NCBI RefSeq assembly: GCF_963855985.1
Contig: NC_087097.1
Location: forward strand, 1,459,001-1,523,000
Origin: Ostrinia nubilalis
Taxonomy: Eukaryota; Arthropoda; Insecta; Lepidoptera; Crambidae
Direction of reading: 5' to 3'
Length of the DNA stretch: 64,000 nucleotides
The translations under genes were made by a program, and so were the position numbers. This document shows, one piece after another, positions 8,097-55,994 of the stretch; position 1 is the first letter of the stretch; every line of letters starts with the position of its first letter. The notes beneath the pieces are model-generated. The model was not told the origin of the DNA, did not search any database, and saw only the letters and a program-made list of their open reading frames with translations.

Positions 8097-8194
8097 AATA
8101 AAGTGTTCATAAGTATTGTGAGTGTAACTTTATGATTGTTTATTTAAGTATTGAACGTAAATCTAATTATATAAATATAACTCAAAGGTGACTG

Positions 8195-8378
8195 ACTGAC
8201 TGACTGACATAGTGATCTATCAACGCACAGCCCAAACCACTGGACGGATCGGGCTGTAATTTTGACATGTAGGTAGATGTTATAACTTAGGCATCCGCTA
8301 AGAATGGATTTTACGAAACTCCACCCCTAAGGGGGTAAAAAGGGATCCACGCGTACGAAGTCGCGGGCGGCCGCTAGT
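8195..8378 (-). repeat. Dispersed lepidopteran short repeat
   Basis: Starts (GACT)n, then CAACGCACAGCCCAAACC, and ends GGATCCACGCGTACGAAGTCGCGGGCGGCCGCTAG. The same module is seen at 52285-52445 and repeatedly between 57975 and 61310. It is absent from units 2 and 3 at this position, so it is a unit-1 insertion. Confidence 0.6.
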
Positions 8379-8384
8379 ACATAA

Positions 8385-8610
8385 TAAGAGTGCTAATAAA
8401 TTAGAAGCTCTTCCGCGACCTTTACCAGATCGTCAGTCCACCTAGTAGGAGGCCTGCCCACGCTACGTCTTCCAGCCCGTGGTCGCCACTCGAGAACTTT
8501 TCTGCCCCAACGGCCATTGTCTCTACAAGCTATGTGCCCTGCCCACTGCCAATCACTTTAGTTCTCCTGCGATAGAAGAAGTTGAAAATAAGTTTACATA
8601 TAGAATGAGA
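8385..8610 (-). pseudogene. RTE-type LINE C-terminal relic
   Basis: On the minus strand it encodes pieces WAGHIACRDNGRWGRKVLEW and GRRSVGRPPTRWTDDLVK, the C-terminal signature of RTE-type endonuclease/reverse transcriptases. It is short and broken. Counterparts are at 17300-17500 and 25215-25320. Confidence 0.6.
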
Positions 8611-8850
8611 TAGAGAGAGATCTCATAAAAACTGCTGCTCCTTTAGAACATATTTTGAGACATCTAAAATTCTAAATTCTAGTAAATGGTCGAGAAACAA
8701 AGATTTGGAAAACACGATAATTTATTTAGATACTACCTACTCTAGATCGGGAAAGCAAAAAATGTGGACTGAAATCAACACAACGAAAACTTTGCTGTGA
8801 CTAATACAGAGAAAATACCAATACACAGCATAGACTACGTAGAAATCTAA
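8610..8850. other. Shared unit sequence, non-coding
   Basis: Present in all three units (17520-17900 and split around 25320-25378 / 39922-40370 in unit 3). It contains the ACATATTTTGAGACATCT site into which two different LINEs inserted in units 2 and 3. No gene. Confidence 0.5.
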
Positions 8851-8851
8851 T

Positions 8852-9711
8852 TACTTGGATTACTAATGTTTGGCCAAAAAACGTTTCCCAAATTATCACA
8901 TCGCAAACAACGTTTCACAAACTTTTATTTGGCAAATTTTCATTTGGCAAAACTACTTATTGCAAATATTTAATTCGCAAATGTCGTTTTTGGCATATTA
9001 TTGTTTACCAAATTATTTTTTGGCAAAGTATGTTTTGCCAAATGTTTCATTTGGCAAAAATATTTCACGATAAACAATTTACAAAATAATTTGATTGATG
9101 CATAGAATGGAATACAAATAAGCTTGTGGTTATTATTTTGTTTCGTGGGTAGTTAATATAATTTTTTTCTATGCTAATTTTCATATTTCATTCTTTTTAT
9201 CGAAATTTCCAAATGATTCATCAACAATAAAGGTGATTCTAGCGCTCGGCGGCCGCTGCCGCGGCACGCTTCGCTCGCCTTCGCGCGTTAATGGCCACTG
9301 TTCTAACCTAACCTAACCTACTATTCTGCAATACCTACTTTCTGCAACCATACTGTTTTCTGCAATCTCTTTGTTTTACATAAAATTCTTGTGAAAACCA
9401 TGATGTGCATAGGCACACCACCACTTACCCACCGTTACCCACAAATCAAAGCCTATGCTTTGAATTTTGAAAGTATCTGAAGTGTCAATTTGACGAAACA
9501 AATTATTTGGAATATAATATTTGGCACAATAAAACATTTGCTATATAAACATTTGCCAAGTAAAATTTGGCCAAATGATAATTTGACCAAATGAATTAGT
9601 TGCGAAAAGAGCATTTGCTAAAAGTTCATTTGGGAAATGAAACTTTGGCGATAAGTTGTTTGCGAAGTGAAATTTGGCGAAAAGTAATTTGGCCAAACGG
9701 AAGGATACCCT
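8852..9711. mobile_element. Unit-1-specific element with periodic TTTGGCAAA arrays
   Basis: An 860-bp insertion, absent at the matching place in units 2 (near 17885) and 3 (near 40350). Two arrays flank a core. The left array (8869-9058) holds about 13 and the right array (9489-9697) about 14 copies of a TTTGGCAAA-like 9-mer, spaced almost exactly 15 bp apart. The outermost copy on each side is the palindrome TTTGGCCAAA. The core has a GC-rich patch, three CCTAA units and three TTCTGCAA motifs 16-18 bp apart. No transposase is encoded. I infer a non-autonomous DNA element whose arrays bind protein; the superfamily is unknown. Confidence 0.65.
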
Positions 9712-9846
9712 AAATACTTATATTTCGCCTACCGAGATTTTAACGGCAAATTCAATTTTTTACCTTAAACAACTCCTGTTTATGTGTCATAGCAATTACT
9801 TTCATGTTAACAAGTTTACTGCTGCGCAATTGCTATGACATTTATA

Positions 9847-10515
9847 CAGTGTGTCCGGGCTTGTAGTGATCAAACTTTAAGGGCAAAATCTAGGGACAAT
9901 TTTATCGATAAAAATACTTCAAATTTGGGGCCCGACCCATTTCTCGAAAAATTACATCGATTTAAGTTTTTAATTTTTAGTTTACACCTCTTCTTTAAAA
10001 AACAAGTGAAAGCGTGGGTAGCTTAACATTAATAGGCAAATATTTTATATCATGCGATAGCCAATAAAATTATCTATTAGTAGAAGAAGAAAACAGACAC
10101 AAATTTCATACATTTTATGGGAGTAAGAATGGATTTAATTAGAAAAATACATTACATTTTTTTTACTTCTTTTTCAGTTATTTTCAAACACAAGAAAAAC
10201 CAGGTCGTTAAGGTATGTTTTATTTGCAATGTATTTTTAGTATTTGAGCTATTCTACAAAACGAATGTAAATTTATTAGTCTACGTCTATTAGTTTCGAC
10301 GTAATTGTTGAACAAAGATACCCCTTCCCAGCGGTTTCCATAGTAATCGGAATAGGTTGTGTGATTCTTTCAGGCAGTGCATTTTCGCATGTCGCGTGCG
10401 CTATGGAAACCGCTGGGAAGGGGTATCTTTGTTCAACAATTACGTACGTTTTATCGATAAAATTGTTTATAGATTACGCCTTTAAAGTTTGATCACTACA
10501 TGCCCGGACACACTG
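9847..10515. mobile_element. 669-bp MITE with TA target duplication
   Basis: Terminal inverted repeats CAGTGTGTCCGGGCTTGTAG / complement of CTACATGCCCGGACACACTG are flanked by TA on each side. The empty site is intact in unit 2 (near 18035) and unit 3 (near 40490). A second fold-back (about 10299-10445, arms containing CCCCTTCCCAGCGGTTTCCA) is nested inside. The TA target suggests the Tc1/mariner group. No coding sequence. Confidence 0.8.
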
Positions 10516-12352: not shown

Positions 12353-13558
12353 TTAGTTGTATTTGTCTATCACTTCTAGTAGGTACGGATAGAAGTTCTC
12401 AGTCATATACCGACCCCAAAAAAAATCGACGTGGTTAAATTTTTTGTATGGGAGCACTTGGTAGTGCACCACGTTGGGCAGCGACGCCCTCAGCAGCTCC
12501 GCGTCTTCCACCGTGCCCAGGAAGTCCTGCTCGCCCACGAACAAGGCTGATTTCATCCTCACCTTCTTTAAATCAAACTCGGGTGGATTCAGTCTTTTAT
12601 AAACTTTCAAATTCTCTAAAGAACCGTAATCAAATCTTGCAAATTTCTTACTCCGAGCCACCTGTATCAAATGATCAAAAACCTTAAGTGATGTGCCTCC
12701 TGGGAAATGGCCATATATTGTCTTTTGGAATTCCGGCTCAAATCCATCGGTATCTTCGCCAACAAGCGAAAATAGTCCTATTTTAATGCACAAAGTGTAA
12801 CCACCGGGGACGAGACATATTGCTTGAAAAAGTGGCGCTGTCTGATTGTAATTTTCAACTTCGTAAATATTCAGTAACTTTAAGCCATCTACCAGCAGCG
12901 GCCCCAAAGCCACTCCCACAGTTGCAACGCCGCGTAAATTTTGTATAAAACTTATAGGAGCCAACGATATGCCAATTTTGATTTTATCGTTATACTCCGG
13001 CAACTCGGCTCCCAGGACGTACAGCATCGTGGTGCCGAGCGAGTGCCCGATGGCCATGAGTTTCGCTTGTCCAGTCTTCTCCAGAATGAAGTCTATGGTG
13101 GATGGAATGTCGTATATGGCTTGTTCATAGAAGCTGAAATCGAAGAACTGACTTGGTTGCGTATCAGGATCTAGAGTGATGTGCTTCCGCGAATACCTGG
13201 AGCCCCGCAAGTTGATCGCCCACACGTCGAACCCTCGCCTGGCGAGAGTGATGGCCAGAGATATATTTCCTCGTTCAATCCAGCTGTCCGCGGTGAGAAT
13301 GTTGCCATGTATGAGCAGCACAGGGCTAGAAACATTCCCAGGGATGTGGAACAGCGACAATATATAACCATCCTCGGTAATGACGTTTTCTTGCTCAGCA
13401 GGAAATCCGTATTTGGCTGCAATTCCAGGAAACGTGAGTCTCCCATCTTCTGATAGTTTGTCAGGCTGAGGTTCCAGTAACAGTGAATTGACTGCTCCAC
13501 TGATGTGTAGTATTATGGTACAAATTATGCCTAACGCAAAACTATTTCGAACACTCAT
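12353..13558 (-). CDS. Secreted acid lipase (lipase 1/3-like), copy 1
   Basis: Single-exon gene for a 401-residue alpha/beta hydrolase of the insect acid-lipase family (triacylglycerol ester hydrolysis, in Lepidoptera typically a secreted midgut enzyme). Residues 1-24 form a signal peptide with a hydrophobic stretch LGIICTIILHIS. The HG oxyanion motif is at LLIHG (82-86). The nucleophile elbow GHSLG puts the catalytic serine at 173; Asp345 in VGEQD and His376 in FNHVD complete the triad. Length matches the family. The start is the first ATG; upstream in-frame sequence has no ATG. A TATA-like box lies 116 bases upstream. Copies at 19314 and 43759 share flanks, so it arose by tandem duplication. 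No intron is seen, which is notable. Confidence 0.9.
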   Translation of the reverse strand: MSVRNSFALGIICTIILHISGAVNSLLLEPQPDKLSEDGRLTFPGIAAKYGFPAEQENVITEDGYILSLFHIPGNVSSPVLLIHGNILTADSWIERGNISLAITLARRGFDVWAINLRGSRYSRKHITLDPDTQPSQFFDFSFYEQAIYDIPSTIDFILEKTGQAKLMAIGHSLGTTMLYVLGAELPEYNDKIKIGISLAPISFIQNLRGVATVGVALGPLLVDGLKLLNIYEVENYNQTAPLFQAICLVPGGYTLCIKIGLFSLVGEDTDGFEPEFQKTIYGHFPGGTSLKVFDHLIQVARSKKFARFDYGSLENLKVYKRLNPPEFDLKKVRMKSALFVGEQDFLGTVEDAELLRASLPNVVHYQVLPYKKFNHVDFFWGRYMTENFYPYLLEVIDKYN

Positions 13559-13673
13559 TGTATTATTGTGTTTTCCGAACAAAATAAAATAAAACAATAT
13601 TATTTTTCCTGAAAGGCAGGCAAACTGTATATGAATACAGTACAAGTATTAAAAAATATGCAGTCTATTGTCG

Positions 13674-17674: not shown

Positions 17675-18047
17675 ATATTTTGAGACATCTAAATTCTAGT
17701 AAATGGTCGAGAAACAAAGATTTGGAAAACACGATAATTTATTTAGATACTACCTACTCTAGATCGGGAAAGCAAAAAATGTGGACTGAAATCAACACAA
17801 CGAAAACTTTGCTGTGACTATAGTACTTATTATTATTCTGTGCTAATACAGAGAAAATACCAATACACAGCATAGACTACGTAGATATCTAAATTCTAAA
17901 TACCTACTTATATTTCGCCTACCGAGATTTTAACGGCAAATTCAATTTTTTACCTTAAACAACTCCTGTTTATATGTCATAGCGATTAAATTACTTTCAT
18001 ATTAACAAGTTTACTGCTGCGCAATTGCTATGACATTTATATAGTCA

Positions 18048-19313: not shown

Positions 19314-20519
19314 TTAGTTGTATTTGTCTATCACTTCTAGTAGGTACGGATAGAAGTTCTCAGTCATATACCGACCCCAAAAAAAATCGACGTGGTTAAA
19401 TTTTTTGTATGGGAGCACTTGGTAGTGCACCACGTTGGGCAGCGACGCCCTCAGCAGCTCCGCGTCCGCCACCGTGCCCAGGAAGTCCTGCTCGCCCACG
19501 AACAAGGCTGATTTCATCCTCACCTTCTTTAAATCAAACTCGGGTGGATTCAGTCTTTTATAAACTTTCAAATTCTCTAAAAAACCGTAATCATATCTTG
19601 CAAATTTCTTACTCCGAGCCACCTGTATCAAATGATCAAAAACCTTAAGTGATGTGCCTCCTGGGAAATGGCCATATATTGTCTTTTGGAATTCCGGCTC
19701 AAATCCATCGGTATCTTCGCCAACAAGCGAAAATAGTCCTATTTTAATGCACAAAGTGTAACCACCTGGAATGAGACATATTGCTTGAAAAAGTGGCGCT
19801 GTCTGATTGTAATTTTCAACTTCGTAAATATTCAGTAACTTTAAGCCATCTACCAGCAGCGGCCCCAAAGCCACTCCCACAGTTGCAACGCCGCGTAAAT
19901 TTTGTATAAAACTTATAGGAGCCAACGATATGCCAATTTTGATTTTATCGTTATACTCCGGCAACTCGGCTCCCAGGACGTACAGCATCGTGGTGCCGAG
20001 CGAGTGCCCGATGGCCATGAGTTTCGCTTGTCCAGTCTTCTCCAGAATGAAGTCTATGGTGGATGGAATGTCGTATATGGCTTGTTCATAGAAGCTAAAA
20101 TCGAAGAACTGACTTGGTTGCGTGTCAGGATCTAGAGTGATGTGCTTCCGCGAATACCTGGAGCCCCGCAAGTTGATCGCCCACACGTCGAACCCTCGCC
20201 TGGCGAGAGTGATGGCCAGAGATATATTTCCTCGTTCAATCCAGCTGTCCGCGGTGAGAATGTTGCCATGTATGAGCAGCACAGGGCTAGAAACATTCCC
20301 AGGGATGTGGAACAGCGACAATATATAACCATCCTCGGTAATGACGTTTTCTTGCTCAGCAGGAAATCCGTATTTGGCTGCAATTCCAGGAAACGTGAGT
20401 CTCCCATCTTCTGATAGTTTGTCAAGCTGAGGTTCCAGTAGCAGTGAATTGACTACTCCACTGATGTGTAGTATTATGGTACAAATTATGCCTAACGCAA
20501 AACTATTTCGAACACTCAT
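19314..20519 (-). CDS. Secreted acid lipase, copy 2
   Basis: A 401-residue single-exon paralogue of the lipase at 12353, differing at six positions (A22V, P32L, V250I, F309Y, S313F, E351A). Signal peptide, LLIHG oxyanion motif, GHSLG elbow with Ser173, Asp345 and His376 are all kept, so it should be active. The start is the first ATG, and a TATA-like box lies 116 bases upstream as in copy 1. The near identity and shared flanks point to very recent duplication or gene conversion with copy 1. No frameshift or stop is present. E351A lies near the catalytic acid loop and is the only change close to the active site. Confidence 0.9.
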   Translation of the reverse strand: MSVRNSFALGIICTIILHISGVVNSLLLEPQLDKLSEDGRLTFPGIAAKYGFPAEQENVITEDGYILSLFHIPGNVSSPVLLIHGNILTADSWIERGNISLAITLARRGFDVWAINLRGSRYSRKHITLDPDTQPSQFFDFSFYEQAIYDIPSTIDFILEKTGQAKLMAIGHSLGTTMLYVLGAELPEYNDKIKIGISLAPISFIQNLRGVATVGVALGPLLVDGLKLLNIYEVENYNQTAPLFQAICLIPGGYTLCIKIGLFSLVGEDTDGFEPEFQKTIYGHFPGGTSLKVFDHLIQVARSKKFARYDYGFLENLKVYKRLNPPEFDLKKVRMKSALFVGEQDFLGTVADAELLRASLPNVVHYQVLPYKKFNHVDFFWGRYMTENFYPYLLEVIDKYN

Positions 20520-20634
20520 TGTATTATTGTGTTTTCCGAACAAAATAAAATAAAACAATATTATTTTTCCTGAAAGGCAGGCAAACTGTATATGAATACA
20601 GTACAAGTATTAAAAAATATGCAGTCTATTGTCG

Positions 20635-27239: not shown

Positions 27240-28344
27240 TCACAGGCTGAGGAACCTCCGGACAATGCGTGCCGTGCTGAGGATCACCGCCTTTTGCATC
27301 TGACCCTTGAGCCAACCATCCAGCGAGAGCTTCTTTAGATGTTGGTCGAAGCTCTTCGCTATTAGCCCGTTTGCCGAGACAACTATCGGGACAATGATCG
27401 TCGAGTCAACATCCCACATGGCGGTCACCTCGTGGGCCAAGTCAAGGTATTTGCTTTGCTTTTCCTTCTCGGCCTTCACGAGGTTTTCGTCATGCGGGAT
27501 GGTAATGTCAACGAGCATTGCCCGACGTTGGGATCGGTCAACCACCACAATATCAGGCTTATTACAGACAATAGTCCTGTCTGTGATGATAGAACGATCC
27601 CAATAGAGCAATGCATGACCATTTTCGAGAACTGGCACCGGCTGGTATCGGTAATAAGGCGTCTCAGATTCAAGAAGGCCGTACTGAAGAGCAAGTTGCT
27701 GATGGATGATTCTGGCTACTAGGTTATGCCTGTGCAAGTACTCACCGTTAGCAAGATGCGAACAACCAGAAATTATATGCCTGAGTGACTCTCCGGGACG
27801 GTGGCATGCTCGACAAATGTCGACCGTACCGTCCTTCAGGATATATTTTCGGTAATTGTTCGTCATCATGACCTCGTCAGCAATTGCACAAGCAAAACCC
27901 TCGGTTTCCCCAAAGAGGTCACCGAAGCGTAGCCAGTTCACCGAGGCGAGGAGGTCTACATCAGGACCTGTAAGGGCCCGATAGAACCTCCCGTGCAGCT
28001 CCTTGCTCTTCCATACGTCCTTCCGATCCGCGACGCTCAGGACCTTTGGCTTCCAGTTCTCGTTCGCCAAGGAGAGCGGCGTGAGGCCTTTGTCAACTGC
28101 CACAACATCGCGATGCATTCCGCACTCATTGGCAAGGAAATAATCCCTGAGACTGCACACTTCACGGTTGTGGAGGTTCTTGGCATTTAAAAAGCCTCGA
28201 CCACCCCACTTCCGTGGAATGTACAGTCTCATCACAGATGAACGCGGATGTAACATGCGATGTTGTGTGAGCTGCTGACGTACCTTCCTATCCAGGGCGT
28301 CAAGTTCAGTCTGAGTCCATCTTAGTATGCCGAAGGAGTATATC
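27240..28344 (-). pseudogene. R4/Dong-like LINE ORF, C-terminal part
   Basis: Continuation of the frame at 38032-39904 after the copia insertion; with one copy of the 5-bp target duplication removed the frame is continuous. About 365 codons. Landmarks: RWTQTELDALDRKVR just after the junction, the CCHC knuckle CRACHRPGESLRHIISGC, then the restriction-like endonuclease with KPDIVVVD and MLVDITIPHDENLVKAEKEK. The last few residues are ARIVRRFLSL. Intact in itself, but cut off from its reverse transcriptase. Confidence 0.85.
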
Positions 28345-28549
28345 TGTTGTGATGGAATTAAAAATAACGGATTTACTAACGAAATGTATTTTAATATGTC
28401 CTCGACACACTTTTTATAATATCCAACCCGAGTACAGAAAAACGTCACAGAGACCGGAAGTCTTAAATCTACCATAGACTATTAAACCAGGATACACCTC
28501 TTTTTTTTTTTTTTAAACAGTAGTGATTGCATTGGCTTGGCATTCAACA
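28345..28549 (-). repeat. 3' LTR of outer copia
   Basis: 205 bp, TGTTG...CAACA, matching the LTR at 37828-38031 except for one T in a homopolymer. Confidence 0.95.
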
Positions 28550-28562
28550 CCCCCCCTCAATG
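28550..28562 (-). other. Polypurine tract of outer copia
   Basis: CACCCCCCCTCAA region on the plus strand, i.e. a purine run on the coding strand directly before the 3' LTR. It primes plus-strand DNA synthesis. Confidence 0.7.
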
Positions 28563-28771
28563 TAATTACTACATTTAAAAAAAATTAAACAAAAATAACA
28601 TTTTTTTTTGCTTCTCATAAACTTAAATTCTTAAATTTTCAACTTATATACTTATACTTCTTAAACTTATACTTGTTATACTTATCCTTGTTACACTTAT
28701 ACTTCTTATATTTTATTAATTACTTTAACTGAACTACACTGTATTATTCTCATTACTCTACATTATTAATT

Positions 28772-30008
28772 TTATACATTTATGCCACAGCTTTTAGTAA
28801 ACTTTAAAATTAAATCCCTTCCTAATGGCTTAGTAAACATGTCAGCAATTTGTTCCTCAGTTTTAATATATTCCAAACATATTTGTTTATTTTTAACTAA
28901 CTCCTTAATATAGTGGTAGCGAATATCTATATGTTTTAATCTTTTCAAACTGTCTGTACTAGCAACTGTTATAGCAGACTGGTTATCACACAATATTTTC
29001 ACAGCATAATTTACATTTATATCAAAATCTTTCAATAAATTTTTCAACCAACATGCTTCACTACTTGCCATACTTAAAGCCACATATTCAGATTCAGTTG
29101 AGGATAAACTTACTGAAAGTTGCTTTTTGGAACACCAAGAAATAAGACAATCAGAAAACTTGAAACAGTACCCAGTTGTTGACTTTCTATCTTTTAAGTT
29201 ACCCGCCCAATCAGCATCACAATAACCCAACAATGGTACATTTTCTGGTTTAAGAGTTAACTCATAATTTATAGTATGCTTCACATATCTTAAGACCCTT
29301 TTTAAAGCAGTCAATAAAACATCATTTGCTTGGTTTTGATAACGGCTCAATATAGCAACAGGAATACATAAATCTGGTCTTGTAGCTAAAACTGCATACA
29401 TGAGTGACCCTATCATTTGTCTACACAATCTTTCAACTTCAGGTAAAGGTTTGCAATTTTGGTTATTCAACATTTTACAATTAAAGTTAACATCCATGGG
29501 TGTATTCATTGGCTTACAATTTTCCATTTTATATTTTTTAAGAACATTTAACAGATAACTACTTTGACTTAATGTTGTTACTCCTGTATTTAAGTTTTGT
29601 TTTACATTTATCCCAAGAAAATTAGACACCCTCCCTAGATCTTTCATTTCAAATTCACTGCAAAGCTTTAATTTAAAGTCATTAATCCAATTTTCATCAG
29701 TTCCAAACATGAGCAAATCGTCAACATACAGCAAAACATACATTTTATTACCATTCTGACATTTTGAATACAAGCATGAATCACTTATGGATCTCTTAAA
29801 ACCTTCTTTTTGCATAATTGAGTTAAATTTATCATTCCAGTATTTGGGAGATTTTTTTAAACCGTACAATGACTTATTTAGTTTTACAATCTTATTATTA
29901 TCAGTATAAGCCCCCTCTGGTAGTCTGAGATAAACCTCTTCATCTAGTTCCCCATAAAGGAAAGCCCCAGTTACATCCATCTGATAAACAGGTAACATAA
30001 GTTTAGTT
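28772..30008 (-). pseudogene. Outer copia polyprotein, C-terminal part (RT and RNase H)
   Basis: About 410 codons. It begins inside the reverse transcriptase just before the MDVTGAFL motif-A region and contains the YVDDLLMFG catalytic box. The RNase H follows with YCDADWAGNLKDRKSTTG, SLSSTESEYVAL and the C-terminal ADMFTKPLG. It continues the frame at 34988-37671; the inner copia is the only break seen. Inactive as it stands. Confidence 0.9.
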
Positions 30009-30013
30009 GCAAT
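30009..30013. repeat. Target-site duplication GCAAT, left
   Basis: Matches 34988-34992 and flanks the inner copia element. Confidence 0.9.
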
Positions 30014-30205
30014 TGAAGAAAGTTGAGAAATAATAATATTTTATGTTGGGATCATTGATTTTTATACTGTGTAAATTGTAAATGACAGCTAGAAGACTCG
30101 ATGACATTTGTATGAATATTCCTTCTTCTCTATGGTAACCTGACCTGTGCAAGACGTAATAAAATAAGTTATCTAAATACTCTTTCATTTAAAATAATTC
30201 TAACA
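30014..30205 (+). repeat. 5' LTR of inner copia
   Basis: 192 bp, TGAAG...CTAACA. The primer-binding site GGTTATGGGCTGA follows at 30206; it resembles the internal initiator-Met tRNA complement used by copia. Confidence 0.95.
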
Positions 30206-30220
30206 GGTTATGGGCTGATA
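30206..30220 (+). other. Primer-binding site of inner copia
   Basis: GGTTATGGGCTGATA directly downstream of the 5' LTR, sharing GGTTATGGGC with the outer element's site. Confidence 0.75.
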
Positions 30221-30347
30221 TTAGATTATAAAAGTGATAAAGAGTGTAATTTGCTATTAAGCCAGATGGCACAGGCCGTAGGGAAGCGTTAGTTCTCACA
30301 TTTTTCAGGAGCGTCTTTTCTTTGTTACTATCAAGTCGAACTTAAAG

Positions 30348-33300
30348 ATGGCTACCGGCTCAACAAATTTATTAATGCCTCAACTGACCGATAAATTGAA
30401 CTTTTCCCATTGGAAATTTCGTATAAAAACTCTACTCGAAGAGAGAGGTGTAGTCCAAGCAATTAATTTTGACATATTGAACGAAAAGGACGACAAAAAG
30501 ATCACAGCGTTCCAGATTGAGGACGCCAAGGCGCGGTCAATAATTGTGCAATGCGTATCAGATAAATATATAGATATCATTAAAAAGGCGCAAACTGCAT
30601 CCGAAATGTTACTAAAATTAGAAGAAATTTTCGAAAGAAAATCTGTATTTAATAAATTATATCTAAAGAAGAAATTATTATCACTGAAATGTACAGATAA
30701 CCAAAATCTACAAGACCACTTTCTGGCATTTGACACTGTGATTAGTGACATGGAGGCTGCCGGACATAACATGGAAGAAACGGACAGGGTGGCCCATCTT
30801 TTATTAACTTTACCGGATGTGTATGAAACAGTAATAACAACGCTGGAAACCATGACTGTGGACAAAGAGTTAAACCTAGACTTTGTGAAATCAAGACTGC
30901 TGGATGCGGAATTAAAATTAAAAGGCAAAGAAACTATACATGAAATTAACTTTATGGCATGTTTTAAATGTGGAAAGAAAGGGCACAAAGCCGTTAATTG
31001 TTATACAAATTCGAATCAGAACTACAGAAATTCATTTGGAAACTATAGAGGAAGAGGCCGAAACATGACCAGGGGCCAAGGTCCAAGATACAGAGGCAGA
31101 ACACCACAAAATAATAGACAAAAGTTAGCATTTCTAGCCATGTGTACTGTGGAGAAATTAAATAAATTCATTTTAGATTCAGGAGCCAGTAATCATATGG
31201 TAGCTATGGAGAATGAAAAATTTATGACAGACATACAAGAATTAAAACACCCAATTAAAATACAAATAGCAAATGGAGAAACTTTAATAGCGAAGAAAAA
31301 AGGCAAATTAAACACAAAATATCAAGACATAGAAATAGAATTGGAAGCATTACTAGTAGAGAACTTGTCCTATAATTTATTATCAATAAACAACATAACA
31401 AGAAAAGGATTTCAAGTAATCTTTGATCAAGAAAATGTAACATTAAGAAAAGGTGATATATATTTGAGTGGCACAAAAATGAGTAACATATACACTCTAG
31501 ATTTGGAAATTGTAATAAATAGTGCTCACATTTCAAAAGAAAATGGAAATGATATTTGGCATAAAAGGTTGGGACACATTAATTATGATGATTTGAGAAC
31601 ATTGAATTTACCTGTACCTAATAAAAAGTGTACAACTTGTATAGAAGGAAAAAGTACTCGAAGAAGTTTTCATAATTCAAAGTCGAGACATAGTAAGCAA
31701 ATAGGAGATCTTATTCATTCAGACGTCTGTGGTCCAGTAGAACCTACAACTTTACATGGTCATAATTACTTTCAAGTATTAATAGATGATTTTAGTCATT
31801 ACACTGTGGTTAAACTGTTAAGAAGAAAAAGTGAAGCAGAAAGTAATTTAATAAATTTTATAAAATATATAAAAACACAATTTGGGAAGAAAACAAAAAG
31901 GCTGAGACTAGACAATGGAGGAGAATTCAGTTCGAATATGCTCAAGAATTATTGTATGAATAAAGGAATAGAAATAGAGTATACAACTCCCTACACCCCC
32001 CAACAGAATGGTACCTCGGAGAGGATGAATAGAACATTATTAAACAAAGTGAGGACCAAATTAATTGAAACAAAATTACCAAAAGAACTATGGGGTGAAG
32101 CTTTATTCAGTTCAGCTTATGAATTAAACCGGAGTCCAACTACTGCACTAATTGGGAAGACACCATCTATGTTATGGTATGGTAAAAATAATTTAGAAAA
32201 ATTGAGAGTTTTTGGAAGCAAAGCTTGGTGTGTAACTTTACCAAAACCAAAGAAATTGGAACCAAGAGCTAAACAGATGATTATGGTTGGATATTGTGGA
32301 TCTGGGTATAAACTATGGGATTATGAAGAAAATAAAATAGTTGTTGCTACTGATGTTACATTTGATGAAACAGACATACACTACAGGAAGAATGAAAATG
32401 ACAGTGAAAATATAAATGAACATAAAATAATAATTACCAGTAATGAAGATGAAAATGTTATGGAAGGAAAAACTGAAAAGAAAAACATGATTATAAATAA
32501 GAGTAATGAAGAAGAAAATGATATGAAAATTAATACTAATGAAGAAGTAAATGTTGAAGAAATGAATATGAAAGAACAGGAAGAAAATATTAATGAAGAA
32601 AACAATTGTGATGAAGAATCAGAGAGGCCAATAAGACCTAGAGTTACACCAAAACATCTTGACGACTATGAGTTGTATATGGCATATTGCTTAAGTAGTA
32701 TAGAAAGTCCAAACACATATAAAGAAGCCATTAAAGACAAAGATTGGGAAAATGCAATTAATAAAGAATTTAAGTCTCTACAAGATCTACAAGTATGGAC
32801 AGAAAGTGACTTACCTGAAGGAAAAAAGGCTATCGAAACCAAATGGGTTTTTCGCACAAAACAGGATGGAACTAAAAAGGCGAGGTTAGTCGCAAAAGGG
32901 TTTCAAGTTGATGCAAACACTTCGGAGTTATATTCTCCAGTTGCAAAGACAACAACTATAAGATTAATGCTGTCACAAGCTATGACAAACAATTGGGAAA
33001 TACGACAGCTTGATATACCATCTGCATTCTTAAATGGAGAGTTGGAATCAACAGCAGAAGTATATATAAAAGTTCCTGAAGGGATGAATATTAAAAATGG
33101 AAAAGTACTAAAATTACAAAAAGCCTTATACGGACTTAAAGAAGCACCACGTTGTTGGAATGAAACAATAAACAAATTTTGTGAGTCCATAGAAATGAAG
33201 CGATCTAAATATGATGTGTGTTTATATACTGGAAATGGCATATGGCTTGTTATATTTGTAGATGATATTTTAATAATTGGAGACTCAAAGACAATAGAAA

Positions 33301-34175
33301 CAACTGTACAGAAACTAAAATCCCAATTTAAAGCCAAAGACATGGGTTATGTAAAAAGTTTCCTAGCTATTGACATAGAGAGAAATGAAAACACATTAAC
33401 ATTATCACAAGAAAAGTTTATTGACAAATTGTTACAAAATTTTCATATGGCTGATTGTAATGCAGTTTCTACACCAATGACAAGTAACTTCCAACCTGAA
33501 ACAGAAAACAAGATTATTAATACAGTACCTTATAGAGAATTAATTGGAGGACTTACTTACCTGTCAATGATGACACGGCCCGATATAATCTATGCCACAA
33601 GTTATCTCAGTAGATACTTGGATAAACACACTGAAGAACTGTGGAGAGCAGCAAAGAGAGTGCTCAGATACTTAAAAGGCACCAAGGATCTTAAACTGAC
33701 TTATACCAGAAATGATGTCAATAATATTTCAGCTTTTTCAGATGCAGATTGGGCAGGAGACAAGTCCGATCGAAAGAGCACGAGTGGCATGGCAGTGTTC
33801 CATGGGAACAACCTCATCTCGTGGGCATCCAAGAAGCAACCTGCTGTCGCCTTGTCAACTGCCGAGGCGGAGTATGTCGCCGCAGCACTATGCGCTGCTG
33901 AGCTCCTGTACATCCGAGGACTCGCCAGTGAATTCAATGAATGCAGTGTTGTGTTGTTTGTGGACAATAGTAGTGCAATTAAAATGATATCGAACTATGA
34001 AAACACTAAACGATCGAAACACATTGACATTAAAGTGCATTTTATAAAAGACATCGTAAATAAGAAGTTATTACAAGTGAAATATGTGTCGACAGATGAA
34101 AATATCGCGGACATCATGACAAAACCCTTGTGTCGTGAAAAGTTTCAGAAGTTTAGGGAAAATTTGATCAAGTAA
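30348..34175 (+). CDS. Copia gag-pol polyprotein (intact)
   Basis: 1275 codons from ATG to stop, without breaks. Order (approximate residues): Gag with LNFSHWKFRIKTLLEERG (15-35); zinc knuckle CFKCGKKGHKAVNC (about 205); aspartic protease FILDSGASNHMV (about 275); integrase with HKRLGHINYDDL and CTTCIEGK zinc residues, then HSDVCGP, RLDNGGEF and NGTSERMNR giving the D,D,E triad (about 405-560); an acidic, N- and E-rich linker (about 680-770); reverse transcriptase with TKWVFRTK, QLDIPSAFLNGE and the FVDDILIIG box (about 830-975); RNase H with SDADWAGDKSDRKSTSG and STAEAEYVA, ending ADIMTKPLC. Frame, LTRs and flanks are all consistent with a currently or recently mobile element. FVDD replaces the usual YVDD and is known among copia elements. 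Confidence 0.95.
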   Translation: MATGSTNLLMPQLTDKLNFSHWKFRIKTLLEERGVVQAINFDILNEKDDKKITAFQIEDAKARSIIVQCVSDKYIDIIKKAQTASEMLLKLEEIFERKSVFNKLYLKKKLLSLKCTDNQNLQDHFLAFDTVISDMEAAGHNMEETDRVAHLLLTLPDVYETVITTLETMTVDKELNLDFVKSRLLDAELKLKGKETIHEINFMACFKCGKKGHKAVNCYTNSNQNYRNSFGNYRGRGRNMTRGQGPRYRGRTPQNNRQKLAFLAMCTVEKLNKFILDSGASNHMVAMENEKFMTDIQELKHPIKIQIANGETLIAKKKGKLNTKYQDIEIELEALLVENLSYNLLSINNITRKGFQVIFDQENVTLRKGDIYLSGTKMSNIYTLDLEIVINSAHISKENGNDIWHKRLGHINYDDLRTLNLPVPNKKCTTCIEGKSTRRSFHNSKSRHSKQIGDLIHSDVCGPVEPTTLHGHNYFQVLIDDFSHYTVVKLLRRKSEAESNLINFIKYIKTQFGKKTKRLRLDNGGEFSSNMLKNYCMNKGIEIEYTTPYTPQQNGTSERMNRTLLNKVRTKLIETKLPKELWGEALFSSAYELNRSPTTALIGKTPSMLWYGKNNLEKLRVFGSKAWCVTLPKPKKLEPRAKQMIMVGYCGSGYKLWDYEENKIVVATDVTFDETDIHYRKNENDSENINEHKIIITSNEDENVMEGKTEKKNMIINKSNEEENDMKINTNEEVNVEEMNMKEQEENINEENNCDEESERPIRPRVTPKHLDDYELYMAYCLSSIESPNTYKEAIKDKDWENAINKEFKSLQDLQVWTESDLPEGKKAIETKWVFRTKQDGTKKARLVAKGFQVDANTSELYSPVAKTTTIRLMLSQAMTNNWEIRQLDIPSAFLNGELESTAEVYIKVPEGMNIKNGKVLKLQKALYGLKEAPRCWNETINKFCESIEMKRSKYDVCLYTGNGIWLVIFVDDILIIGDSKTIETTVQKLKSQFKAKDMGYVKSFLAIDIERNENTLTLSQEKFIDKLLQNFHMADCNAVSTPMTSNFQPETENKIINTVPYRELIGGLTYLSMMTRPDIIYATSYLSRYLDKHTEELWRAAKRVLRYLKGTKDLKLTYTRNDVNNISAFSDADWAGDKSDRKSTSGMAVFHGNNLISWASKKQPAVALSTAEAEYVAAALCAAELLYIRGLASEFNECSVVLFVDNSSAIKMISNYENTKRSKHIDIKVHFIKDIVNKKLLQVKYVSTDENIADIMTKPLCREKFQKFRENLIK

Positions 34176-34795
34176 GGTTTTATTTTTTTAATTTAGGTTA
34201 TTTTTTGTTTGACAGTTGACAATCACTGACATTTCAACACATGACATTTGACGTTTGTAGTATGACCAGTAATAAAAATGTGTCAATTTCAAGTCCGAAT
34301 TGTAGACTGAATAAAAATTTGTACTTTAGTTTAAAACTTGCTTAAACGGAAACTTGAAATTGCAGGCGGGTATAAGATATAGTGTAAAATAGGCTTAACT
34401 AAAATATCCTACATGTTGCTGATATATGTAAATTAATATTATTATCACTTTATACTTACACTTAAAAGAAAAATGTTAATGTTATTTAATTAAGTTGCCA
34501 AAGCTGACAAGTGTGAAATAAAACTTAATTATTATTTAACTTTTAATAAATTGTCATAAAAATTGATTTTTGATGTTACTAACTTCTAAGATTTGTAAAA
34601 GGATCTTTATCTTGATTTCTTTTTTAAATGTTTATGTTAAAATAACTAATAACATAACTAATGTTGTGTATTAAAGTGTAAAAGTTTTGTTTTTAAATGA
34701 GGATTCTAATACTTTATTTGATAAGTTGATTTGTATTATTTAGCGATTTAAACTTAACAATACTTGTATTTTATAAGGTCTAAATCGAGGGGTCG
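34176..34795 (+). other. 3' untranslated part of inner copia
   Basis: 620 bp between the stop codon and the 3' LTR, AT-rich, no frame. A short purine run CGAGGGGTCG precedes the LTR and is the likely polypurine tract. Confidence 0.6.
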
Positions 34796-34987
34796 TGAAG
34801 AAAGTTGAGAAATAATAATATTTTATGTTGGGATCATTGATTTTTATACTGTGTAAATTGTAAATGACAGCTAGAAGACTCGATGACATTTGTATGAATA
34901 TTCCTTCTTCTCTATGGTAACCTGACCTGTGCAAGACGTAATAAAATAAGTTATCTAAATACTCTTTCATTTAAAATAATTCTAACA
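34796..34987 (+). repeat. 3' LTR of inner copia
   Basis: 192 bp, read as identical to 30014-30205; followed by GCAAT at 34988-34992. Confidence 0.95.
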
Positions 34988-37671
34988 GCAATTACCATGA
35001 ACAAACGAAAAGTTGTCAACTTTGCTACTGGAGCATAGAGCTCATTAATATCTAAAATATCTGACTGTTCAAAGCCCCGAGCTACCAGACGTGCTTTATA
35101 CTGATGTTTACCATCGCTAATTTGTTTAATTTTAAAAACCCATTTGCTACTCACAATGTCTTTGTCCACAGGATACTCACAGACTGTCCACGTGTTGTTG
35201 TCTTTCAATGTCTGCAGCTCTTTACTTACAGCCTCACTCCATTTGCTGGAATCACTCCTTTTCATAGCCTGCTCATAGGTTGTTGGCTCATTTTCTTCGC
35301 TGTAGACATTATGGCAGCAGTAAAATTTGTTCTGCTTTCTGATCCGCCTGCTCCTATCACGACGTACCTCTCTTTCATCCACCAACTCCATTGAACTATC
35401 ACCTTCATCAATACATGGCTCATATTCACTCACTTCAGTTTCATTCTCAATCTCTGTGTCTTCTCCTGTACTTATTTCAACATCACTTCGAGGTTCACAT
35501 GCTCCATCATCTTCCTGTTCCTCATCCTCCACATTGCAATCCAAATCCAACTTTACCACTGGCTCTCTGCTTTCACTCTGTACTTCTTCTTCTAAGAAAA
35601 CCACATCTCTCTTTATTTCTACTATATTTTTCTCTGCAAAATAGACTCTGTAGCCTTTCACGTTTTCGCCATAACCAACCATGTATCCCTTTTCGCCTTT
35701 CTTGTCCCATTTCCTTCGTCTTTCCTTTGGTATGTGCACATAAGCCGGTGTGCCGAAAGCCTTCAATAGATGGATATCGAAACTCTTGCCAGTCCACAGC
35801 TCATATGGGGTTTTCTCACTATTTTTGCTCTTCCCCGTTCTATTGAGCACAAATGCAGCTGTATGGACCGCCTCCGCCCACAGTTTCTTCGGCATGTTCT
35901 TGGCATAGAGCATGGTTCGTGCTGCCTCCACCAGTGTTCTGTTTTCCCGCTCAGCCTTGCCATTTTGTTCTGGACAATAAGGTGTGCTTGTTTGGTGAGT
36001 TATTCCATGCTTTGAAAACAATTCCTTGACTTCTTTATTGACAAACTCAAGCCCGTTGTCACTTCTAAAAGTTTTCACTTTATTACCAGTTGTGTTCTCA
36101 GCTTTATTTATGAAATCAGCTATGCAGTTCTTAATCTCGTGCTTATTCTTGACAAAGTATACGTGTCTATAACTTGAGAAGTCGTCCTTCAAGACCACAA
36201 AGTATCTTGACCCTCCAACAGATGTTTCCTCCATGGGGCCACATGTATCCGCATGGATCAGTTCACAGGTTCTAGTGCTGACACTCTCGCTGTTATGGAA
36301 CGATAATCTATGTATCTTCCCTTGAAGACAACCTTCGCACTTGGGCAACGAAGTTGTGTTCACATTGATGTCGTTTTTCGTAAGTAACTTTTTCACATGT
36401 TCGAAGTTTTGGTGCGCTAACCTTTCGTGCCACTGATAGAGATTATTGTCCACTGCTTTTGCAACACTAGCCACTTGGTTTTTGTAGCGAAAAACCATGT
36501 AATATGAGTTCCCATGTCGTTTAGCAATCGCACAGACATTGTTGTTTTTGATGAACCTACACGATCTGTCATCTGTCACCATGACATAACCTTTGTCAGA
36601 CGCACAGTTTACCGCAAAGAGATTGGTTTTAAGGTCCGGAACGTATAACACATTGTCCATGGTGGTATCAATCCATTCTTTCCCGTTATGAACTTGTACA
36701 GCCACTAGTCCACATCCTAACACACTAATTGAGTCACCATTTCCTAGTATCACTGATTTTTGAGTAGCGCTTGTCAGAGATGTAAACAAAGCGCGGTCAC
36801 AGCACATGTGTTCACTGGCTCCGGAGTCCACTAGCCATTCTGATTTCTGATAATGTCCTGAAGCTGACACTACAAACGCATTACTTTTCTTATTGTCACT
36901 GTTTTTCCTAAACCAACACTGCGCTTTTTTATGTCCCATTTTACCACAATAGAAACACTTGTTATTGTTATTATTTGAGTTCCCTTCACTGTTATTGTTC
37001 ACCCTACATTCACTTTTGTAATGTCCAAGTTTGTTACACTTGTAACACTTCACGTTCTTCTTAGATTTAACCAGGAATGCCGACGAATTAGATGTAGTAA
37101 CTTCTTCATTTTTCTCATTTATTCTTTCTTCCTCTATTAATAACCGAGCAACCAGATTGTCTACTGTTTGTTTTTCTTCAGGGGCTGACTCCCACGCCGA
37201 AACGAAGTGTTTGTACTCGTCAGGCAGCGACATCAGGATTTTTGTAATGGTGAACTTATCAGATACTGGCTCTCCCATCTGTTTCAATGTGTTTTGCATC
37301 TCCTGTATTTTAGAAAGGAAAACTGCCATTTCTGTACCTCTTTCAAATTTGAATTGAAAGAATCTCTGTTGCAATATATGTATACTTGTCTCCGATTTCT
37401 GCTCGTATACACTCATCAGCTTGGTCCACATTGCTGCGGATGTACTGCATGTTAAGATGTGCAGCATCGCCTTCTCGGTCATCCTGGACACTATTATCGA
37501 CTGTGCTTTGGCGTCTTTGGCATCTGACTTAGCCCTGCCTTCCTCCGCGTCCGACCGTCCCTCAACGATGTCCATCAATCCTTGGCTTCTCAATAGCACC
37601 TGTGTCTGGAACTTCCACACGTTCCAATTGTTGGATCCTTCCAATCTAATAGAATTGTGATTCCCTTCCAT
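34988..37671 (-). pseudogene. Outer copia polyprotein, N-terminal part
   Basis: About 895 codons from a good ATG (37671) to the inner insertion. Gag starts with NNWNVWKFQTQVLLRSQG; two zinc knuckles follow, CYKCNKLGHYKSEC and CFYCGKMGHKKAQC; protease WLVDSGASEHMC; integrase with WHERLAHQNFEH, CEGCLQGK, HADTCGP, RSDNGLEF and NGKAERENR; an acidic linker; and the start of the reverse transcriptase (SSKWVFKIK, KARLVARGF). It is cut just before motif A. No other stop or shift was seen, so it was probably functional until the insertion. Confidence 0.92.
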
Positions 37672-37810
37672 TTCGTTATTGTTATCGTCCTGTCTTGTCC
37701 GATCTTAACAAGATGTTTCACGACTTCACGTGCAAGCCGGCAACCCGTTACCGAAGCGAGAAATACTAATACTATTGCGATCACTTTAACTTTCTCACTA
37801 CACAGATATG

Positions 37811-37827
37811 TGCCTGGGCCCATAACC
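37811..37827 (-). other. Primer-binding site of outer copia
   Basis: GGTTATGGGCCCAGGCA on the minus strand, directly after the 5' LTR; copia-type initiator-Met tRNA site. Confidence 0.8.
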
Positions 37828-38031
37828 TGTTGTGATGGAATTAAAAATAACGGATTTACTAACGAAATGTATTTTAATATGTCCTCGACACACTTTTTAT
37901 AATATCCAACCCGAGTACAGAAAAACGTCACAGAGACCGGAAGTCTTAAATCTACCATAGACTATTAAACCAGGATACACCTCTTTTTTTTTTTTTAAAC
38001 AGTAGTGATTGCATTGGCTTGGCATTCAACA
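37828..38031 (-). repeat. 5' LTR of outer copia
   Basis: 204 bp, TGTTG...CAACA, followed by the target duplication ATATC at 38032-38036. Confidence 0.95.
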
Positions 38032-39904
38032 ATATCAATAGAGGCATCACCCAACCGTTGAAAGCTCTTACTTTGTTGCCGCCAGACAAAAGACTATTAA
38101 GAACTTTTGTCAGTCGGCTACAAAAGCGTTCTTTCACCGATTTTTTGATGTCTTCTACCGATATACCTAACGATTCTGACATACCAAGATACTTATAGGT
38201 CTCAGTTTCGGAGAGAGATTTGAGTATCATTGTCTCAGAAAGCTGTAAATTCGGGGAATTCACAACTTTTCCCCGCTCTACATGTAAGACCGCACACTTG
38301 TCTACACCAAACTCCATCCTGATGGCGTTGCTAAATACCTGTGTGGTTTTTAGCAACTTCACCAGGTCTTGTCGTTTTGGTGCAAACAACTTGAGATCAT
38401 CCATGTAGAGCAGGTGACTAATGACCTCACCCCCTCTTCGAAGCCGATAACCAAGCCCTGAATCCTTTAACAGAGTGCTAAGAGGATTCAGTGCTAGGCA
38501 GAACCATAAGGGACTCAAACTGTCACCCTGGAAAATGCCTCGCTCAATCCTTATGAAGTTCAATGGATCAGGAGACCTCTCACTACCACCTGGTTGCCGA
38601 AGGACTGTAGTCCACTGCCCCATGCATGAGCTTAAAAAGGATCTCAGAGTTGCATCTACCTTATACAACTCTAAAATCCTCTCTAGCCATGAATGAGGCA
38701 CCGAATCATAGGCCTTCTTATAGTCAATCCAGGCAGCAGAGAGAGCTTTCCTGCTCCGTCGAACTTGTTGGCTAATGGTCATGTCTATGAGGAGGAGCTC
38801 TTTAGTACCACGAGACCCAACCTTACATCCATTCTGAGCAGGGGCCAAGATATTGTTCGCGACAATATGCGTATTAATTTTTGTGGTCAGAATAGATGTA
38901 AGGAGCTTGTAGATGGTAGGCAAGCATGTAATCGGTCTGTAGTTCTTTGGGTCCATGGTACTACCAGATTTGTAGAGCAAGGTGGTGACACCGGTAGTCA
39001 TGAAGGCTGGAAGGGAACCGAGCTCGAGGGCTTCTTGGAATTGTGTCGCTAAACGGTCATGTGAGCATCGAATCCACTTAATCCAAAAGTTGTGCAATCC
39101 GTCCGGCCCAGGGCTTTTCCAGTTCTGGGCCGTGCTGATTGCACTACTAACGTCTTCGGGATCTATAACAATAGACCCCATGGATTCGATGGACTCACAT
39201 TCACGCTCAATTACACGCATCCAATCACCCTCAGTGTGCTCAACGGGCATCGACCAAATGCCACGCCAGAAATCAATCATGGTATTGACATCTGGCAGCT
39301 GCCCGTCGCTCACACGTTGATCAGCTCCCTCCCATCTCCGGTACACCTTCCTCTGGTCACTTTGGAAGACACGATTTTGCCAGTATCTGTTCACGCGCTC
39401 TTTGTAGCGACGAATACGGTTTGCCCATGCATAGACTTTTTGCTTTAGGTAGTCAATGCGTTCTGTGACACAAGCCATGTAGTCCTGAGGTAGAACGCCA
39501 GTCCCAGCAAAGGCTTGCGTCACAAACCGCATGACTCGGGGACGATTATTTCCCCGTCTAAAACAAATTAGCTTTGCAATGAGAGTCCTGAATGCATTAA
39601 TACGCCGCTCGATCCGTATTTGCCACGCGGGTGTCATCCCGGCAGGACGCGTTGCTCTGTCCGAGTCTGGGAACTGGACACCAGCAACACGGCAAACCGC
39701 AATGGCACCACAATACAGGATCGAGTGGGTATCAAATAAATTTGTGCTAGTCCGCATATACGGAATTAGCAATGCATTTAGAGCTCCCATTAACGCCAAA
39801 TTACGTCTATGAGTGGGCAAACGCGGTAGTCGAGGCCTTGAATCTGACGTGAACCGATACTGACCAATAGTGTCCTCCAAAGCCCTCCTCAATCGCTCAC
39901 TCAC
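38032..39904 (-). pseudogene. R4/Dong-like LINE ORF, N-terminal and RT part
   Basis: About 624 codons. No ATG at the left limit; microsatellite TAA stops lie directly upstream, so the true N-terminus (usually carrying zinc fingers) is missing. Reverse transcriptase landmarks: NWKSPGPDGLHNFWIK, NYRPITCLPTIYKLLTSIL, AAWIDYKKAYDSVPHSW (motif A), IFQGDSLSPLWFCLALNPLS (motif B) and HLLYMDDLKLFA (motif C). The frame then runs into the outer copia at the ATATC duplication and resumes at 28339. Confidence 0.88.
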
Positions 39905-40229: not shown

Positions 40230-40509
40230 TTGGGACTACCTACTCTAGATCGGGAAAGCAAAAAATGTGGACTGAAATCAACACAACGAAAACTTTGCTG
40301 TGACTAATACAGAGAAAATACCAATACACAGCATAGACTACGTAGATATCTAAATTCTAAATACTTATATTTCGCCTACCGAGATTTTAACGGCAAATTC
40401 AATTTTTTACCTTAATCAACTCCTGTTTATATGTCATAGCAATTACTTTCATATTAACAAGTTTACTGCTGCGCAATTGCTATGACATTTATATAGTTAT
40501 TGAAAGAGG

Positions 40510-43758: not shown

Positions 43759-44964
43759 TTAGTTGTATTTGTCTATCACTTCTAGTAGGTACGGATAGAA
43801 GTTTTCAGTCATATACCGACCCCAAAAAAAATCGACGTGGTTAAATTTTTTGTATGGGAGCACTTGGTAGTGCACCACGTTGGGCAGCGACGCCCTCAGT
43901 AGCTCCGCATCCTCCACCGTGCCCAGGAAGTCCTGCTCGCCCACGAACAAGGCTGTTTTCATCCTCACCTTCTTTAAATCAAACTCGGGTGGATTCAGTC
44001 TTTTATAAACTTTCAAATTCTCTAAAGAACCGTAATCATATCTTGCAAATTTCTTACTCCGAGCCACCTGCATCAAATGCTCTAAAACCTTAAGTGATGT
44101 GCCTCCCGGGAAATGGCCAAATATTGTATTCTGGAATTCCGGCTCTAATCCATCGGTATCTTCGCCAGTAAGCGAAAATAGTCCTATTTTAATGCACAAA
44201 GTGTAACCACCAGGGACTAGACATATTGCTTGAAAAAGTGGCGCTGTCTGATTGTAATTTTCAACTTCGTAAATATTCAGTAACTTTAAGCCATCTACCA
44301 GCAGCGGCCCCAAAGCCACTCCCACAGCTGCAGCGCCGCGTAAATTTTGTACAAAACTTATAGGAGCCAACGATATGCCAATTTTGATTTTATCGTTATA
44401 CTCCGGCAACTCGGCTCCCAGGACGTACAGCATCGTGGTGCCGACCGAGATCCCGATGGCCATGAGTTTCGCCTGTCCGGTCTTCTCCAGAATGAAGTCT
44501 ATGGTGGGTGGAAGGTCGTATATGGCTTGTTCATAGAAGCTGAAATCGAAGAACTGACTTGGTTGCGTGTCAGGATCTAGAGTGACGTGCTTCCGCGAGT
44601 ACCTGGAGCCCCGCAAGTTGATCGCCCACACGTCGAACCCTCGCCTGGCGAGAGTGATGGCCAGAGATGTATTTCCTCGATCAATCCAGCTGTCCGCGGT
44701 GAGCGTGTTGCCATGTATGAGCAGGACAGGGCTAGAGACATTCCCAGGGATGTGGAACAGCGACAATATATAACCATCCTCGGTGATGATGTTTTCTTGC
44801 TCAGCAGGAAATCCGTATTTGGTTGCAATTTCAGGAAACGTGAGTCTCCCATCTTCTGATAGTTTGTCAAGCTGAGGTTCCAGTAGCAGTGAATTGACTG
44901 TTCCACTGATGTGTAGTATTATGGTACAAATTATGCCTAACGCCAAACTATTTCGAACACCCAT
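43759..44964 (-). CDS. Secreted acid lipase, copy 3 (altered nucleophile elbow)
   Basis: A 401-residue single-exon member of the first lipase subfamily, differing from copy 1 at about 25 positions, so the oldest of the three. The signal peptide, LLIHG, Asp345 and His376 are present. The elbow reads GISVG instead of GHSLG: Ser173 remains but the preceding His and following Leu are replaced. G-x-S-x-G is still satisfied, so activity is possible, with changed substrate or rate. Start chosen as the first ATG; a TATA-like box lies at 45075-45080. No stop or frameshift. Confidence 0.88.
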   Translation of the reverse strand: MGVRNSLALGIICTIILHISGTVNSLLLEPQLDKLSEDGRLTFPEIATKYGFPAEQENIITEDGYILSLFHIPGNVSSPVLLIHGNTLTADSWIDRGNTSLAITLARRGFDVWAINLRGSRYSRKHVTLDPDTQPSQFFDFSFYEQAIYDLPPTIDFILEKTGQAKLMAIGISVGTTMLYVLGAELPEYNDKIKIGISLAPISFVQNLRGAAAVGVALGPLLVDGLKLLNIYEVENYNQTAPLFQAICLVPGGYTLCIKIGLFSLTGEDTDGLEPEFQNTIFGHFPGGTSLKVLEHLMQVARSKKFARYDYGSLENLKVYKRLNPPEFDLKKVRMKTALFVGEQDFLGTVEDAELLRASLPNVVHYQVLPYKKFNHVDFFWGRYMTENFYPYLLEVIDKYN

Positions 44965-55938: not shown

Positions 55939-55994
55939 TTTTTCGCAAATTGGACCGCTAAAATGTCTTTGAGGAACAAGCTCTTCTCTCGTAA

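Follow-up and report, generated by a model that had tools for sequence, protein, structure and literature searches.

A tandem-repeat block with inverted arms in an Ostrinia nubilalis lipase cluster is probably a non-autonomous Mutator-like Foldback element

Results

Genomic context of the repeat block

The window analysed here, a stretch of 64,000 nucleotides from contig NC_087097.1 of Ostrinia nubilalis, contains six lipase-like frames on the minus strand (12353-13648, 19314-20609, 43759-45063, 49136-50338, 54778-56019 and 61537-62727). One frame was called as a lipase by homology and the other five by eye, and the protein of 12353-13648 is 99% identical to 'lipase 1-like' of Ostrinia furnacalis. 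Three of the six frames are near-identical copies, and the duplicated segments around them supplied the empty sites described below. The window also holds other repeats. Nested retrotransposons occupy 27240-39904, where a copia element on the plus strand (30282-34175) keeps a single 1297-codon open frame and splits the RVT_2 domain of a second copia on the minus strand (34951-37704 and 28772-30040), the profile ending at 73 and resuming at 64. The minus-strand copia in turn seems to lie between pieces of a LINE on the same strand (37952-39904 and 27240-28478); the LINE pieces were joined by eye, and a Pfam search of the putative piece at 27240-28478 gave no match. At 8158-8399, a GACT microsatellite adjoins a repeat that is partially matched near 1.2, 52.3, 58.0, 58.6, 59.1, 59.9, 60.2, 60.8 and 61.3 kb, an arrangement that we take to resemble the GTCY-microsatellite MITEs of moths. 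A 135-bp unit forms two arrays, with 2.2 copies each, at 58798-59090 and 60877-61169, apparently in opposite orientation as judged by eye.

The block studied in this work consists of two repeat arrays on either side of a core:

8869-9058, plus strand: left arm, 13 units at a mean step of 15.06 bp, CAAA facing inward
8869-8878, unstranded: outermost left unit, perfect palindrome TTTGGCCAAA
9059-9488, unstranded: core without evident coding capacity, with a 70% GC stretch (9232-9300), AACCT x3 (9305-9319) and TTCTGCAA x3
9489-9697, minus strand: right arm, 14 units at a mean step of 15.32 bp, CAAA inward as the reverse complement
9688-9697, unstranded: outermost right unit, perfect palindrome TTTGGCCAAA

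Two arrays with a pitch of about 15 bp

The initial annotation had described about 27 variable copies of a 9-mer in two arrays with a strict 15-bp period and perfect palindromes as terminal copies. The count agrees with ours, which gives 27 units in total (13 left and 14 right), each a TTTGGCAAA-like 9-mer. The arrays and their period were also confirmed by autocorrelation, where lag 15 is the peak in both arrays with an identity of 0.54 (z 7.1 left and 7.3 right, with 300 dinucleotide shuffles as the reference). The word 'strict' does not hold, however, as the steps between units range from 14 to 16 bp in the left arm and from 14 to 17 bp in the right. Throughout both arms, the unit positions deviate from a linear fit by at most 1.5 bp. 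When non-overlapping 9-mers with at most two mismatches from TTTGGCAAA or TTTGCCAAA were counted, 12 were found in the left array and 14 in the right. Shuffles (n=500) averaged 3.1 for the left and 2.6 for the right and never exceeded 8 and 7, respectively; at 8899, one left unit (CATCGCAAA) differs from the motif at three positions. The perfect palindrome TTTGGCCAAA occurs at 8869, 9566 (an inner copy) and 9688, and these are all three occurrences in the whole window. Both terminal copies are among them, as had been claimed.

The core, of about 430 bp, is largely non-repetitive. Its autocorrelation places lag 15 outside the eight best lags, and lags 14, 16 and 17 reach z 2.5-3.1. The third motif, said to recur in the core at a step of 16-18 bp, was indeed present there as TTCTGCAA at 9324, 9340 and 9358, with steps of 16 and 18, and the plus strand of the whole window carries four occurrences of it. 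Directly after the GC stretch, AACCT x3 (9305-9319) is the sole such triplet on either strand of the window, and we take it to represent the telomere unit of insects, which reads TTAGG on the opposite strand.

The inward CAAA is the constant part of the repeat

The repeat is directional, and its constant part is CAAA read inward. In the motif register, CAAA is kept at 105 of 108 letters (50/52 left and 55/56 right). It is perfect in 24 of the 27 units when these are read inward, compared with 7 of 27 for TTTG, and on this basis a strict palindrome was rejected as the repeat unit; the register follows the 9-mer and undercounts the 10-bp palindromes. Because the motif register is drawn from the motif itself, we added a recount on a linear lattice. 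With a shift of up to 2 bp in either direction for each unit, CAAA was kept at 98%, while non-overlapping windows reached 0.77-0.83. Considering that shuffles on the same lattice and with the same shift reached at most 0.78 (n=200), the spacers stand at or just above the highest shuffle. A shift of up to 3 bp gave 0.81-0.86 for the windows other than CAAA. At zero shift, CAAA (0.68) and TTTG (0.67) did not contrast; the pitch is approximate, and its wobble of 1-2 bp accounts for this. Counts on the plus strand that use no register gave CAAA/TTTG as 12/7 in the left array and 4/13 in the right (Fisher p 0.023), and GCAA/TTGC as 7/2 and 0/5, respectively, whereas CCAA/TTGG, at 4/6 and 4/7, had no direction.

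These results bear on two origins that had been put forward for the arrays, namely selection for evenly spaced protein contacts and generation by slippage. The persistence of CAAA through the divergence of the units, as read from the sequence, favours selection on a contact over recent slippage. Tandem duplication or slippage may have built the arrays in the first place, but slippage alone does not explain why CAAA outlasted the rest of the unit. Of the first proposal, the conserved element stands at 98%, the even spacing holds only approximately, and the contacts are putative. A distance of 15 bp corresponds to about 1.4 helical turns, which places successive sites on different faces of the DNA.

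We also scanned viral contigs and genome contigs with an array pattern requiring three exact 9-mers in a row, and it matched 13 loci (1 + 12), which belong to prokaryotic genomes or a viral contig. The spacers of the first listed match were identical in 11 of the 13 loci; those of L010 and L012 differed, and L011 had an overlapping second match with differing spacers. Since a requirement for three exact copies selects young arrays, the contrast between their spacers and those of the moth arrays is weak. No pattern locus aligned with the element over more than 41 columns by blastn. A pattern for the GC stretch of the core matched three viral contigs (62-67% GC) over 21-24 bp, along with a weak 26-bp match (E 0.8); we took these matches as chance. 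Two further pattern scans of viral contigs gave no match.

The two arms and the core form a single block

The two arrays and the core are one block and not two separate arrays. The arms are mutually inverted, with 8868-8975 aligned to 9698-9590 at 74.5% by blastn, and a local alignment of arm to arm spanned 197 columns, with identity at 139 of 171 aligned letters. Four inverted pairs (I1-I4) were detected between the arrays. When 8857-9710 was folded as single-strand DNA, its stability corresponded to z -7.1, and 0 of 20 shuffles were equally stable. Compared unit by unit, the spacers of one arm matched those of the other at 0.519 in register and at 0.371-0.517 at six other shifts, so the spacers of the two arms are not clearly most alike in register. 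The longest stop-to-stop frame overlapping the block has 94 codons and enters from the flank, and a Pfam search of this frame, the only block frame submitted, gave no match. One copy of the element was seen within the window. The Foldback type is defined by mobility and by long inverted repeats at the ends that consist of short tandem units, and such repeats are present in this block.

Empty sites and the ends of the element

The extent of the element and the sites compared with it are as follows:

8848-8856, unstranded: TAATTACTT, left copy in the likely 9-bp target site duplication, sharing 8 of 9 positions with the right copy
8857-9710, unstranded: whole element in the likely parse, 854 bp, probably Foldback-type and non-autonomous, as suggested by its absence from paralogous sites B and C, its fold and its lack of a long frame
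8857-8868, plus strand: left tip GGATTACTAATG, from end-to-end alignment, a poor match to the other tip
9698-9710, minus strand: right tip, inward GGGTATCCTTCCG, from end alignment; the letters GGGTATCC read as an imperfect palindrome
9711-9719, unstranded: TAAATACTT, right copy in the likely duplication, with the same letters as empty site C (40358-40366)
17897-17905, unstranded: empty site B, in one of the duplicated segments of the lipase cluster, with a 4-bp insertion of its own
40358-40366, unstranded: empty site C in the second duplicated segment, with TAAATACTT once

The flanks of the block match sites B (about 17.9 kb) and C (about 40.36 kb), where they are joined without the block. 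Counting substitutions only, the left flank is identical to B at 83 of 84 letters and to C at 106 of 107, and the right flank at 133 of 136 and 136 of 140, respectively, so that the flanks diverge from B and C by 1-3%; with gaps counted, the identity of the left flank to B is lower, at 85% over 226 columns. Because B and C are almost the same sequence, with 230 of 231 aligned letters shared, they may be a single witness. As for the mobility expected of a Foldback-type element, there are two paralogous sites without the block, perhaps reflecting one event. The simplest reading of these sequences would be an insertion into the A copy once it had separated from B and C; alternatively, the common ancestor of B and C may have lost the block by precise excision.

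A second insertion, at 9847-10515, adjoins the element and is likewise absent from B and C. Its ends, CAGTGTGTCCGGGC...GCCCGGACACACTG, have TA on both sides, with end points set by eye; the inverted ends are 90% identical over 71 columns, and the inner part at 10299-10445 is an imperfect palindrome.

The likely parse of the block is TAATTACTT / GGATTAC...GATACCC / TAAATACTT, with GG at both ends, while the two ends are poorly matched over their outer 12-13 bp. For this parse to hold, one of the two TCTAAAT (7-bp) units that B and C carry must have been lost from the left flank. The flanks can also be joined at 8852/9709, a parse without a duplication that fits the empty sites at the cost of one 1-bp gap. 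The figure obtained for a 9-bp pair matching at 8 of 9 positions or better, 2.6e-4, is too favourable, because the site holds a tandem repeat of TCTAAAT, which makes part of the match automatic and leaves about ACTT alone as independent. For this reason, a 9-bp target site duplication TAATTACTT/TAAATACTT is taken here as likely but not as shown. The initial annotation had left the terminal inverted repeats and the target duplication to be defined; the inverted arms were found, and the likely 9-bp duplication competes with the parse that gives none.

Assignment to Mutator-like elements

We consider it probable that 8857-9710 is a Foldback-type DNA transposon, Mutator-like and non-autonomous, with the 27 inward repeats as putative transposase sites. 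The inverted arms, the directional CAAA with less conserved spacers, the two sites without the block and the lack of a long frame are all seen at the locus. From these, we infer a 9-bp duplication, cut-and-paste in trans, docking of several subunits with pairing of the ends, and a Mutator (Phantom/Muta) type. Among the traits of Phantom/Muta elements, a duplication of 8-11 bp corresponds here to 9 bp at 8 of 9 matches, although the alternative parse without a duplication also fits. Subterminal tandem repeats of 9-15 bp, a common but not universal trait, are present at a pitch of about 15 bp. The third trait is a transposase with a MULE domain, usually accompanied by a FLYWCH zinc finger and encoded by the element or by an autonomous partner, and the element itself has no long frame. 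A fourth is a set of dispersed copies with common ends, of which the 64-kb window shows one. The superfamily assignment is likely on the grounds of architecture, as seen in the one copy examined.

The P superfamily, including Galileo, has a THAP-domain transposase and target duplications of 7-8 bp; the block itself has no long frame, and the imperfect duplication here leaves room for 8 bp. It is conceivable, though we think it unlikely, that the block is a Foldback-like non-autonomous element driven by a superfamily other than Mutator (P/Galileo with a THAP domain, hAT or Merlin), in which case its mechanism would be alike but it would not be related to Mutator. In the passages compared, Galileo has Foldback-like arms, and binding of its THAP-domain transposase was shown in the tandem terminal repeats (PMC3688188), while the Tm1 paper notes that Foldback-like elements are not all related (PMC3169594). 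On the other hand, an 8-bp parse makes the ends unsymmetrical, and 9 bp is the better parse. The 9 bp, the GG ends and the unit of about 15 bp are best matched by Mutator-type insect families.

The age of the block also bears on its nature. The arms differ at about 19% of aligned letters, compared with 1-3% for the flanks, which suggests that the units diverged before insertion if the insertion postdates the split of B and C. If a minisatellite had instead expanded locally, in inverted form, within a single copy of the lipase cluster, this would suit the parse without a duplication and the single copy seen within the 64-kb window. We regard such an event as very improbable, since the largely non-repetitive core of 430 bp and the two arms are missing jointly from both paralogs, and since the divergence of the arms argues against formation of the arrays in place, provided that the block postdates the duplications. 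A host regulatory array, in which evenly spaced transcription-factor sites serve near the lipase genes, deserves hardly any credence: despite the conserved short site on a regular pitch and a nearest lipase frame (12353-13648) about 2.6 kb away, the block occupies only one of three paralogous sites, is inverted symmetrically around its core and has transposon-like ends.

If the block is a Mutator-like Foldback element, a full-length relative at another place in the moth genome would supply its transposase. On each arm, several transposase subunits would dock on the units that bear CAAA, and subunits on opposite arms would pair the two ends, after which the element would be excised and reinserted with a staggered cut of about 9 bp. 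The palindromic outermost units (8869 and 9688) could seat a pair of subunits beside the cut. A bolder proposal, which we put forward only tentatively and hold to be doubtful as it stands, is that of a new moth Mutator-type family with a docking rail of 13-14 sites per end. Its oligomeric transposase would contact CAAA on a pitch of about 15 bp, with loosely constrained spacers, and the outermost palindromic double sites would mark the pairing of the ends. If true, the docking-rail reading would answer whether the tandem repeats of Foldback/Phantom elements are binding sites, a function called untested in 2013 in the passages compared (PMC3688188). The diverged arms of the moth element show which bases persisted, and thus a concrete 4-bp contact and a pitch can be proposed.

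Discussion

The initial annotation knew of no named family with this design, a claim that fails since the published Muta1, Muta5 and Tm1 already have it. Long inverted repeats with 15-bp tandem units in the outer domain, along with 8-bp duplications, also characterize the TU elements of sea urchin, where foldback elements were reportedly treated by Lieberman et al. in 1983. The literature searched, with most subscription journals outside its scope, gave no published moth Foldback with this motif among the matches listed. Of 656 papers containing one or more of three motif strings, the 20 listed appear unrelated, judging by their titles. A paper on moth MITEs (PMC9033116) mentions neither foldback, tandem repeat, MULE, 9 bp nor Phantom, and one on monarch transposable elements (PMC8848866) has foldback in its reference list only. 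According to the part of another source that was compared, MULEs are rare in animals, with a median number of 0 in 100 genomes (PMC8277862).

Drosophila Foldback elements FB4 and Tetris are described in the compared parts of two papers as having long inverted arms, duplications of 8-10 bp and no transposase of their own (PMC8277862, PMC4079207). Long inverted arms are common to these and the moth element, and those of Tetris are repetitive. However, the Tetris units are about 220 bp and the FB4 arms about 700 bp, whereas the moth units are about 15 bp. Galileo, as far as the passages compared go, shares Foldback-like arms of tandem repeats with the moth element but has a P-type transposase and much longer arms. 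In the part compared of a further source, the Phantom duplications are 8-10 bp, and Rehavkus has a 9-bp duplication together with a minisatellite (PMC6446971, Table 1). The same source gives Rehavkus terminal inverted repeats of 26-400 bp, a minisatellite before the 3' repeat and a PHD-finger transposase (PMC6446971); the moth element, by contrast, carries its repeats in both arms.

The MULEs of Aedes are closer in design. In the passages compared, duplications of 8-9 bp occur in 14 of 14 families, and subterminal tandem repeats of 9-15 bp in 10 of the 12 families with long terminal inverted repeats, while derived copies that are non-autonomous vary in unit number and are heterogeneous in the core (PMC5225508). 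Muta1 of Aedes aegypti is called a type 2 Foldback, with a 145-bp terminal inverted repeat of 9 tandem units of 12 bp separated by spacers of 3-4 bp, a 10-bp terminal motif and a 504-aa transposase. Muta5 of the same species has a 151-bp terminal inverted repeat of 9 units of 15 bp, an 8-bp terminal motif and a 554-aa transposase (both PMC5225508). Muta1, Muta5 and the moth element have in common terminal inverted repeats of short tandem units, and the likely parse of the moth site would add a duplication in the 8-9 bp range. The two mosquito elements carry transposases, whereas the moth element has none, more units (13 and 14) and asymmetric tips. This likeness is one of architecture, the letters of the repeats being absent from the passages compared.

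Tm1, a Mutator/Foldback element of the root-knot nematode, has asymmetric 7-bp tips inside 9-bp duplications and a Phantom-like transposase; in the passages compared, 45 of 53 duplications are 8-10 bp, mostly 9 bp (PMC3169594). Its arms hold a variable and unequal number of tandem units of 13-15 bp, and it includes a MITE-like non-autonomous class (PMC3169594). Asymmetric tips, unequal arms and units of the 15-bp class are therefore found in both Tm1 and the moth element, as far as these passages go. They differ in the unit, which is CGATTCAGTATCCGC in Tm1 and TTTGGCAAA in the moth, in the tips (7 bp and 12-13 bp, respectively) and in the identity of the arms, which averages 93% in Tm1 and is about 81% of aligned letters in the moth. 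The moth element is thus best read as an added member of an architecture already known from mosquitoes and nematodes.
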